Shown: piece after piece, positions 9,657-15,834 of the stretch | Layout of the letters: every line of letters starts with the position of its first letter | Numbering within the stretch: position 1 is the first letter of the stretch | NCBI RefSeq assembly: GCF_020911945.1 | Contig: NZ_CP087135.1 | Coordinates: forward strand, 1,302,001 to 1,366,000 | From: Flavobacterium galactosidilyticum | GTDB taxonomy: Bacteria > Bacteroidota > Bacteroidia > Flavobacteriales > Flavobacteriaceae | Length of the DNA: 64,000 nucleotides | Direction of reading: 5' to 3' | Program-made: the position numbers and the translations under genes | Notes under the pieces: model-generated | What the model saw: only the letters and a program-made list of their open reading frames with translations | The model's database searches: none | Told to the model about the DNA's origin: nothing

Positions 9657-9740
9657 TAAGGAGCTATTTCCCGCTTTACATTACAATCTTTTTTTCCTCG
9701 CAAAGGCGACTCAAAAAAGGATTTTCATTACAATCGGGGC
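9657..9740. repeat. Flavobacterial-type intergenic repeat
   Basis: The stretch GAGCTATTTCCCGC ... CGGGGCTAGGG contains two direct copies of CATTACAATC (9679-9688 and 9726-9735) around a CGCAAAGGCGAC core (9700-9710). From memory, elements with the same ends recur between genes in Flavobacterium. It lies just upstream of the phosphopantetheinyl transferase gene. No coding potential is seen. Copy number could not be counted from this window. Confidence 0.55.
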
Positions 9741-9759
9741 TAGGGATCACGATACTAAC

Positions 9760-12714: not shown

Positions 12715-13338
12715 ATGTTTGATTACTTTTTTGCTCAATATCATGATTATCCAGTGCATGAGGTTTGGTTAGAACTTGTTGGTGTGTTTTTTGGACTATG
12801 TAGTGTTTGGTATGCCAAAAAAGACAATATTTTGGTTTTTCCCACGGGATTAATTAGCACCTCCATTTACGCCTATTTGCTTTGGCAGTGGAGCCTTCTA
12901 GGTGATTCAATGATTAATGTTTATTATTTTATAATGAGTATTTACGGTTGGTATCATTGGACACGTAAAAAGGATGATGTAGATGAGTTCCCCATTTCGT
13001 TGATGACTAAAAAAGAGAAAGCAATGGCAGCTATTCTCTTTATAATCACAGTTGTTTTTGTTGTTCTTGTTTATCTTTATTTTAATAAATTTACCAGTTG
13101 GTATTCCTATCTAGACACAATATTAACTGGATTGTTTTTTGTAGGAATGTGGTTGATGGCAAAACGCAAGATTGAAAACTGGATATTTTGGATTGTTGGA
13201 GACCTACTTTCCATCCCACTATATTTGGCAAAGGGATATACTTTTACTAGTTTGCAATATATAGTTTTTACAATTATTGCCGTATATGGCTATTTAGAAT
13301 GGAAAAAAATCTTAAACAACAACAGTCAGCAATTGTGA
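12715..13338 (+). CDS. pnuC: PnuC-family transporter (nicotinamide riboside or thiamine)
   Basis: A 207-residue inner-membrane protein with about seven hydrophobic segments. The C-terminal motif KIENWIFWIVGDLLSIPLYL followed by YGYLEWKK is the PnuC signature. PnuC proteins carry nicotinamide riboside by facilitated diffusion, trapped by a cytoplasmic kinase. The next gene starts with a NadR-like ribosylnicotinamide-kinase domain and overlaps this one by 40 bp, supporting that substrate. However, PnuC homologues in Bacteroidota also carry thiamine (PnuT), and a TPP-riboswitch receptor gene lies 2.5 kb downstream, so the substrate is not settled. Confidence 0.85.
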   Translation: MFDYFFAQYHDYPVHEVWLELVGVFFGLCSVWYAKKDNILVFPTGLISTSIYAYLLWQWSLLGDSMINVYYFIMSIYGWYHWTRKKDDVDEFPISLMTKKEKAMAAILFIITVVFVVLVYLYFNKFTSWYSYLDTILTGLFFVGMWLMAKRKIENWIFWIVGDLLSIPLYLAKGYTFTSLQYIVFTIIAVYGYLEWKKILNNNSQQL

Positions 13339-15422
13339 AAATTGCTTTGTTTGGTCCTGAAAGCACCGGCAAAACGACTTTAGCAAAACAACTCGCTGCA
13401 CATTATGATACGGCTTGGACTCCTGAGTTTGCTAGAGATTATCTTCAGCAAAAATGGGATAAAGAGCAAAAAATATGCGACCTAAGTGATATGCTGCCCA
13501 TTGCGTACGGTCAGGTGCAATTGGAAAATGAAAATTTGGCTGTAGCCAATAAATATCTTTTTTGTGACACTAATTTACTAGTAACAAAGTTGTTTTCGGA
13601 AGTGTATTATAATTATTGTGATCCATTGCTACAGAATGCAGCGCAAGAACATGAATATGATTTATTTTTCCTTACTGATATTGATGTGCCATGGGAAAAA
13701 GATGATTTGCGAGATAAACCAGAAGGAAGGGAATCTATTTTTGCGGTGTTTAAACAATCTTTAATCGATAATAACAAGCCATTTATAACACTTTCTGGAG
13801 ATAAAGAGTTGCGTCTTAAAAAAGCAATTACGATAATTGAAGATTTAGCTAAAGCCAAAACGCTCGGTTTTACGTCGAGGGATTTTGTGCAAATGTACAA
13901 TCACGGGATTTCGGTGGCGGCAATTCAAAAACAGTTAGAATTTTGCAAAAATGGAATTCCTAAAACCTCTTTGGTAGAACCCGCTGTGATAAAGAATGGA
14001 ATTCTAAAGCTTTCCAAAATAGATTTAGAAATTAAAGCTGCCTTTTTCGATAGTAAGAAGGACGCATTAAAACTGTTAAAATTCGTTCCTGCTTCAGGCG
14101 CAGCGACGCGAATGTTTAAGTTTTTGATTGCTTTTTTAGAAGAATTTGACATTGAAAATGATACTATAAACGGATACATCAATAGGAAAAAAGACACTGA
14201 ATTGTCGATGTTTATTATCGCGATGGATAAATTTCCTTTTTTTGATGCAGTTAATGAAAAGTTGCAAGCAGAATATCCTGAATATGATACTTTAACTGAT
14301 GATTATAAAAATTATTACTTTATAAAATTACTACTTTCAACAGTTCATTTTGATTTTGGTAATAAACCAAAAGGTATTTTGCCATTTCATCAGTGTGAAA
14401 ATAAAATCGCTACTCCAATAGAAGAGCATTTGTATGAATGCGGTATTTATGCTAGTTCAGGAGGAAATTCTAATTTGCATTTTACGGTTTCTGAAGCTCA
14501 TCAACAGCAATTTGAAACTATAATAAGCTCGATAAAGAAGAAAGTCGAAATGGAGTCTAATACGACTATTGAAGTTTCGTATTCCTATCAAAACAAAAGT
14601 ACTGATTCATTGACTGTTGATTCAAACAATAAAATATTTCGAGATAAAAATGGTCACTTGGTTTTCAGACCCGGCGGACATGGAGCGCTCATTAAAAATT
14701 TGAATAGGTTAGACGCGGATGTTATTTTTATTAAAAACATTGACAATGTAATGCTTAAAAGCAAAAGAAAAAGTGCATTGTGTAAAAAAGCTTTAGCAGG
14801 AATTCTTGTCGAATTGCAACAGCAAATATTTACGTATTTGAGATTGTTTGATGCTAAAGCTATAAACAATGATGAAGTAGGTGAGGTTACTACTTTTATA
14901 AAAAATAAATTGAGCGTAGAAATCCCTTCGGACTTTGATAGGTGGATAATAGAAAATAAAGTAGACTTTTTCAAAGCCGTTATGAACAAGCCTATACGCG
15001 TTTGTGGAATGGTGAAAAATGAGGGAGAACCTGGTGGAGGACCATTTTGGGTCAGAAACAGTCAGGGATTGGTTTCTTTGCAAATTGTTGAAAGTTCGCA
15101 AGTTGACTTATTTAATGAAGATCAAAAAAACATTCTTAATGCAGCAACACATTTTAATCCTGTTGACCTAGTTTGTGGCACTAAAAACTATAAAAACGAA
15201 CTATTTGACTTGGATCAATTTGTAGATAATACGAGCGGATTTATTGTTGAAAAAACAGTAGCTGGCAAAAATATAAAAGCCTACGAGTTACCGGGATTGT
15301 GGAATGGAGCAATGGCTAATTGGTTGACTATTTTTGTCGAAGTGCCGTTGATTACTTTTAACCCCGTAAAAACAGTTAATGACTTGTTGAAAGCGGCGCA
15401 TCAAAATTCGAAGTTAAAATAA
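13299..15422 (+). CDS. NadR-like P-loop kinase fused to DUF4301
   Basis: 707 residues in two parts. Residues 15-187 form a NadR-type ribosylnicotinamide-kinase domain: Walker A GPESTGKTT (19-27), WTPEFARDYL (40-49), FCDTN (88-92) and the DDLRDKPEGRE lid (135-145). Residues 190-707 are DUF4301, containing VPASGAATRMFK (263-274) and FRPGGHGAL (456-464) followed by FIKNIDNVM. These resemble the GGxGTR and PGGxG...VDN signatures of nucleotide-sugar pyrophosphorylases. No frame break or start codon is seen at the junction, so it is a genuine fusion. It overlaps pnuC by 40 bp; a GTG at 13335 is an alternative start. By its kinase half it should phosphorylate a nucleoside; the DUF4301 role is unknown. 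Confidence 0.8.
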   Translation: MEKNLKQQQSAIVKIALFGPESTGKTTLAKQLAAHYDTAWTPEFARDYLQQKWDKEQKICDLSDMLPIAYGQVQLENENLAVANKYLFCDTNLLVTKLFSEVYYNYCDPLLQNAAQEHEYDLFFLTDIDVPWEKDDLRDKPEGRESIFAVFKQSLIDNNKPFITLSGDKELRLKKAITIIEDLAKAKTLGFTSRDFVQMYNHGISVAAIQKQLEFCKNGIPKTSLVEPAVIKNGILKLSKIDLEIKAAFFDSKKDALKLLKFVPASGAATRMFKFLIAFLEEFDIENDTINGYINRKKDTELSMFIIAMDKFPFFDAVNEKLQAEYPEYDTLTDDYKNYYFIKLLLSTVHFDFGNKPKGILPFHQCENKIATPIEEHLYECGIYASSGGNSNLHFTVSEAHQQQFETIISSIKKKVEMESNTTIEVSYSYQNKSTDSLTVDSNNKIFRDKNGHLVFRPGGHGALIKNLNRLDADVIFIKNIDNVMLKSKRKSALCKKALAGILVELQQQIFTYLRLFDAKAINNDEVGEVTTFIKNKLSVEIPSDFDRWIIENKVDFFKAVMNKPIRVCGMVKNEGEPGGGPFWVRNSQGLVSLQIVESSQVDLFNEDQKNILNAATHFNPVDLVCGTKNYKNELFDLDQFVDNTSGFIVEKTVAGKNIKAYELPGLWNGAMANWLTIFVEVPLITFNPVKTVNDLLKAAHQNSKLK

Positions 15423-15432
15423 TTTGGTGCCA

Positions 15433-15834
15433 ATGGAAATTGAAAAAATTATATCTGAATTAAATTACAAAGCCGTCCGAAGTAGTGGAGCAGGTGGACA
15501 AAATGTGAATAAAGTTTCGTCAAAAGTAGTTTTGAGTTTTGATTTGAGAAATTCTAAATTTCTTTCTGATGATGAAAAGCTGTTATTAGAAACAAATTTG
15601 TCTTCACGACTAACAACTGATTTGGTTTTAATTCTAAATTGTGATGAAGACCGAAGTCAATTTAAAAATAAAGAGATTGTTACAAAGCGTTTTTTAGAAC
15701 TGATGAGAAAAGCTTTAATTGTGCCCAGAATCAGGAAGGAAACTAAGATTCCAAAATCTGCAATCAGAAAGCGGATTAAAAATAAAAAGACTATTTCCGA
15801 AATAAAGAAAACCAGAAAAAAGCCAGATTTTTAA
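15433..15834 (+). CDS. arfB: ArfB-like peptidyl-tRNA hydrolase (ribosome rescue)
   Basis: 133 residues of the class I release-factor fold without a codon-recognition domain. The catalytic GGQ is at 21-23 (SGAGGQNVNKVSSKV), and the C-terminal tail is strongly basic (RKRIKNKKTISEIKKTRKKPDF), as in ArfB/YaeJ, where the tail enters the empty mRNA channel to free stalled ribosomes. The ATG at 15433 is chosen over a TTG nine bases upstream. It follows the kinase-DUF4301 gene by 10 bp and is probably co-transcribed with it, with no obvious functional link. Confidence 0.88.
   Translation: MEIEKIISELNYKAVRSSGAGGQNVNKVSSKVVLSFDLRNSKFLSDDEKLLLETNLSSRLTTDLVLILNCDEDRSQFKNKEIVTKRFLELMRKALIVPRIRKETKIPKSAIRKRIKNKKTISEIKKTRKKPDF

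Follow-up and report, generated by a model that had tools for sequence, protein, structure and literature searches.

This analysis concerns one gene in a 64,000-nucleotide stretch of Flavobacterium galactosidilyticum DNA (the window; contig NZ_CP087135.1 of assembly GCF_020911945.1, positions 1,302,001 to 1,366,000). The gene (13299..15422; window coordinates, + strand unless stated otherwise) encodes a 707-aa protein in which a NadR-type kinase is joined to a DUF4301 domain. We consider it fairly probable that the gene carries two independent enzymes, i.e., a nicotinamide riboside (NR) kinase and a divergent nucleotidyltransferase of the UDP-sugar pyrophosphorylase (UDPGP) type. DUF4301, a conserved and uncharacterised family, would thereby gain a testable biochemical identity as a UDP-sugar-pyrophosphorylase-like enzyme. 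Gene fusion can mislead, and here the comparative data split the two halves.

As an earlier note on this DNA had proposed from the letters alone, one uninterrupted frame, with no internal stops, joins the two parts. By Pfam, the protein contains AAA_28 (residues 14-170, 135 bits against a cut-off of 27) followed by DUF4301 (PF14134; residues 193-702, 665 bits, cut-off 27). Immediately upstream lies pnuC (12715..13338; 207 aa), of the nicotinamide riboside transporter family, the 3' end of which overlaps the fusion start by 40 nt. Its product exceeds the curated TIGR01528 cut-off (111.8 bits versus 42.45) and scores 189 bits with PF04973, in line with the pnuC neighbour named in the note. The thiamine (PnuT) reading of this gene is weakened by the lack of a thiamine pyrophosphate (TPP) riboswitch match at the gathering score in the window. 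The source genome (3.53 Mb, single contig) holds no other pnuC match and a single DUF4301. The one-frame fusion is not a sequencing accident, since the same architecture recurs in 22 of the 80 named loci compared (the 80 best of 591) and most near homologues listed have both domains (113 of the 120 nearest, ordered by closeness to the window and hence a biased sample); the closest named homologues are from Flavobacterium. A model of the whole fusion had a pLDDT of 85.2 and a pTM of 0.80, and the mutual orientation of its domains carries no claim.

Judged from its sequence, the N-terminal half (residues 1-187; 13299..13859) is probably a NadR-type salvage kinase for vitamin B3 compounds. It aligns to positions 164-320 of the 325 in TIGR01526 (NadR), i.e., to the kinase part alone, with the fusion scoring 96.8 bits, under the curated whole-protein cut-off of 341; it also aligns with the solved NadR chains 9x6f, 8x7f and 1lw7, which bears out the earlier kinase assignment. 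This P-loop domain, a relative of the NadR C-terminal domain, carries the Walker A lysine within GPESTGKTT (residues 19-27; 13353..13379) and a Walker B-type aspartate, Asp90 (13566-13568), the motif names being those used in PMC7221760. Residues G19, P20, E21, S22, G24, K25, T26, T27 and D90 were invariant across 34 fused proteins. The kinase half thus shares with NadR the Walker A motif, the aspartate and a W-x-x-D-x-L-R segment; unlike NadR, the fusion has no NMN adenylyltransferase (NMNAT) domain (CTP_transf_like gave no match to it at E ≤ 1), and its kinase is N-terminal and joined to DUF4301. A second AAA_28 protein (179-aa frame) is encoded elsewhere in the source genome.

The C-terminal half is the DUF4301 domain (residues 190-707; 13866..15419), recognized by PF14134. 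An AlphaFold2 model of this piece (13857-15419) had a pLDDT of 91.4 and, by Foldseek and VIA-align, matched structures of UGP, UAP and USP enzymes. The predicted fold is accordingly of the GT-A, UDP-sugar pyrophosphorylase type, as the note had expected from the motifs VPASGAATRM and RPGGHGAL...FIKNIDNV. We compared motif conservation in 63 DUF4301 sequences, reaching down to 31% identity, and 29 UDPGP sequences; from GHG onward the correspondence came from hhalign, and the glycine-rich loop and a glutamine were paired by eye. The core motifs share one order in the two sets. In the first motif, P, A, S, R and M are invariant across the DUF4301 sequences, as are GHG, L and K-N-I-D-N in the second, so that on sequence grounds both are more than a chance resemblance.

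The putative glycine-rich loop, PASGAATRMFK (14088..14120), takes the place of NGGLGTSMG in UDPGP; its consensus, PASGA[AG][TS]RM against NGGLGT[SG]M, keeps G81 in 62 of 63 sequences and R and M in all 63, with serine for the first glycine. Gln431 of the fusion (Q245 of the modelled piece; 14589..14591), a candidate uracil-reading residue assigned by eye and spacing, is invariant and precedes the GHG histidine by 30 residues (29 in UDPGP). It is followed by the GHG motif (14676..14684; PPGHGD in UDPGP), the NIDN motif (14736..14747; N-S-D-N), the E-S-S-Q ... F-N pair (15090..15158; E-S-A-Q ... F-N), in which FN stands 21 residues past E in both families, and P-V-K of FNPVKTVNDLL (15363..15371; FAPVKTTNELL), the likely equivalent of the late active-site lysine. 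This UDPGP core set (Gln, GHG, NxDN, E..Q, FN, PVK) is present in 63 of 63 DUF4301 sequences, the lysine in 62. Because Gln431 is placed like the glutamine that presumably contacts uracil in UDP-glucose pyrophosphorylases, it hints at UTP, not ATP, as the nucleotide used.

DUF4301 therefore resembles the UDPGP family (UGP, UAP/AGX, USP; PF01704) in predicted fold and most core motifs, but differs in its PASGA loop in place of GGxGT, in an identity of 13-18% to UGP, UAP and USP (structure-alignment rows), in conserved blocks such as LPGLWNGAM that have no assignable counterpart, and in that the window protein lies below Pfam detection. Matches to PF01704 at E ≤ 1 were obtained for 15 of the 63 DUF4301 members, the best at 6.9e-5. 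A global hhalign comparison of the two families gave no usable alignment, and a 13-sequence DUF4301 profile had zero matches among solved-structure sequences at E ≤ 10. Within the literature accessible to our search, DUF4301 is mentioned in a rumen proteome table and PF14134 nowhere. Since the glycine-rich loop is altered and an early lysine, K88 in the numbering of the model, is conserved in 48 of 63 sequences, catalytic activity of DUF4301 is something we infer. The same two features would suit a protein that keeps the fold as a regulatory or dead pseudo-enzyme, e.g., a sensor of UTP or a UDP-sugar. We regard this as improbable, given that GHG, NIDN, E..Q, FN and PVK show little or no variation among such divergent sequences, which would be unusual for a dead enzyme.

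The earlier note had gone further and suggested a two-gene salvage path with PnuC, in which a nucleoside is taken up and phosphorylated and an unrelated nucleotidyltransferase then transfers a nucleotide. Applied to NR, DUF4301 would complete the salvage as a nucleotidyltransferase acting on NMN, with a fold class new to that job, and PnuC and the fusion would make NAD or an analogue from NR. The gene row and the two separate fusions described below speak for such a role, as does the kinase, which is without the NMNAT domain of true NadR and leaves DUF4301 in the position of the second enzyme; other GT-A nucleotidyltransferases, moreover, accept non-sugar phosphates. The distribution of the family points the other way. 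Among 296 Bacteroidota and 14 control genomes, DUF4301 was found in 51 of the former and one of the latter, a Bacteroides, and pnuC in 125 of the 296 (124 over the cut-off); the DUF4301 family as a whole is strongly conserved, with at least 7999 matches (7999 of 7999 scored candidates). Within the window's family, pnuC lies within 581 nt of DUF4301 in 27 of 27 DUF4301 genomes, so that the expected linkage to pnuC stood there; outside it, the linkage disappeared, the outcome that the note had named as refuting its reading. Twelve of the 24 DUF4301 genomes outside the family (12 of the 51 overall) have no pnuC, and the other 12 carry it on a separate contig or at a distance of hundreds of kb. 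In 20 of these 24 genomes, the 9-18 kb around DUF4301 held no pnuC or kinase match at E ≤ 1e-3, and 10 neighbours from nine loci, checked with Pfam, revealed no common theme.

The window's kinase has a match in 31 of the 51 DUF4301 genomes and none in 20. In three genomes of the window's own family (G084, G154 and G289), the gap between pnuC and DUF4301 is too small for a kinase, and no match to the window's kinase was found genome-wide at E ≤ 0.001, with DUF4301 kept. In one of these, G289, of the window's genus, the DUF4301 frame is disrupted, with a stop and a change of frame (C54:1491357-1492843), beside the kinase-less pnuC. NadD, in turn, is present in all 51 DUF4301 genomes, and the source genome has one NadD over the cut-off and one CinA family protein. 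The route from NR to NAD through CinA/PncC and NadD consists of known enzyme steps, and because NadD is universal in this set and a CinA/PncC-type protein is present in the source genome, established enzymes can take NMN to NAD. Taken together, the genome comparisons suggest separate jobs for the two halves and make a new NAD pathway unlikely.

Loci without DUF4301 tell a similar story. From 85 genomes with pnuC over the cut-off and no DUF4301, 20 pnuC loci were picked by hand for family spread; eight had an NMNAT-less kinase beside pnuC, three an NMNAT-kinase NadR, and nine no kinase of this kind within 2.5 kb. The eight include G030, scored NMNAT-less despite a 354-aa frame that extends into pnuC, and three loci of the window's own family (G029, G088, G107), whose kinases are 54-57% identical to the window's. 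Given these loci and those with DUF4301 and no kinase, the kinase persists without DUF4301 and DUF4301 without the kinase. In the six PnuC-NadR pairs of Bacteroidota examined (G202, G182, G190, G049, G013, G231), pnuC stands beside a kinase of the same kind, but there an NMNAT part is fused to the kinase, which the window's kinase lacks. This NMNAT part belongs to the usual NadR type, by direct reading of HxGH in three pairs and by blastp in all six; examples of the arrangement are L149 835-2398, L150 812-2429 and L151 1050-2683. In G202 and G182, such a pair with a second pnuC accompanies a pnuC-kinase-DUF4301 row. The transporters of the nine kinase-free loci (G089, G191, G037, G093, G220, G012, G281, G246, G043) may carry another substrate or depend on a distant kinase. 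On the grounds of distribution, kinase loss, NadD and the DUF4301-free loci, an NMNAT role was rejected as the leading reading, and together with the hint at UTP from the conserved residues these data make it very unlikely. Equally unlikely is a version in which DUF4301 joins its own kinase's NMN, or another nucleoside phosphate, to a nucleotide in Flavobacteriaceae, giving NAD or a new dinucleotide, and acts on another phosphate elsewhere; if true, the NMN adenylyltransferase step would have been invented twice, by unrelated enzymes.

The 80 named loci record how the two halves came together and apart. The split rows of other Flavobacteriaceae have the same genes in the same order, but encode kinase and DUF4301 as separate proteins (44 of 80 loci); in 42 of these 44 the two genes overlap or lie at most 6 nt apart, with a 4-nt overlap in 20. 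In nine loci, pnuC is directly followed by DUF4301 and the kinase is gone, and in five DUF4301 stands alone, one of them (L105) at a contig edge and of uncertain label. On a tree of 81 rows including the window, built with a quick method and SH-aLRT support only, the fusions fall into a single Flavobacterium clade and Croceivirga radicis, which suggests about two fusion events; a fusion in another genus (G198) is not among the tree rows. The kinase-less state calls for at least three changes. Like the fused gene, eight of the nine kinase-less DUF4301 genes open with Met-Glu, at a start 25-43 nt inside pnuC, and this fits their origin from a fused gene by in-frame loss of the kinase. One locus labelled as a Klebsiella pneumoniae metagenome-assembled genome (L043) bears a Flavobacterium-type fusion with its neighbours; it is probably a mis-binned Flavobacterium contig, and was retained in the tree.

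A rival reading, which we hold only tentatively, is that DUF4301 stands in for GalU/UGP in some of the Bacteroidota, where it would make UDP-glucose or a range of UDP-sugars. The UGP-type predicted fold and motifs favour it, as does the rarity of the usual enzymes: canonical GalU exceeded its cut-off in 5 of the 296 genomes, with four more coming near it (298-305 bits; cut-off 327), and full-length UDPGP was found in one. It is in such a phylum that an identity for DUF4301 matters. OtsA, a user of UDP-glucose, exceeded its cut-off in 41 genomes, i.e., 13 of 51 with DUF4301 and 28 of 245 without, a weak association (p 0.013, uncorrected for kinship). However, none of these 28 genomes has GalU over the cut-off or full-length UDPGP, so another UDP-glucose enzyme must serve there; four of them hold frames of 1114-1144 aa that match UDPGP in part. 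GalU and DUF4301 occur together in two genomes, 38 of the 51 DUF4301 genomes, the source genome included, lack OtsA over the cut-off, and the GalU model finds at least one match at E ≤ 0.001 in each of the 296. UDP-glucose synthesis in most of the 296 genomes is left unexplained by the GalU and UDPGP models, despite OtsA in 41.

We therefore favour two independent enzymes in one gene. The kinase half would phosphorylate PnuC-imported NR to NMN, which would be converted to NAD by the ordinary enzymes, i.e., by CinA/PncC deamidation, NadD and NadE. DUF4301 would bind a nucleotide, most likely UTP, through its glycine-rich loop, the invariant glutamine and the GHG motif, and move UMP onto a sugar-1-phosphate or similar phosphate with release of pyrophosphate. 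The fusion itself may be a by-product of overlapping, co-expressed genes, with no substrate shared. Several results sit uneasily with this interpretation. Foldseek TM-scores were 0.37-0.56, with an rmsd of about 5-13 Å, among the rows listed; the window's DUF4301 had no match to PF01704 even at E ≤ 1; the hhalign probability for DUF4301 and UDPGP was 37-48% over 176 columns of the C-terminal part, with an E-value for a single comparison; and the loop PASGAATRM departs from the textbook GGxGTSM. The tests of a UDP-glucose role, by GalU and OtsA, were weak or mixed. The split and fused loci together imply a long-kept linkage of pnuC, kinase and DUF4301, and DUF4301 and pnuC co-occur above expectation (39 of 51 versus 85 of 245 genomes; Fisher p 5e-8, uncorrected for kinship). 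Finally, this linkage and the two separate fusions argue for some functional link, one that our interpretation takes to be weak.

Downstream of the fusion lies an arfB-like gene with an RF-1 domain (15424..15834; PF00472), a common neighbour, with relatives in 60 of the 80 named loci, that is not thought to have a part in the function of the fusion. Elsewhere in the window, a Flavo-1 RNA (RF01705, 71 bits) lies at 9663-9745 on the - strand, between two genes that we take to be adenosylhomocysteinase-like and phosphopantetheinyl-transferase-like.
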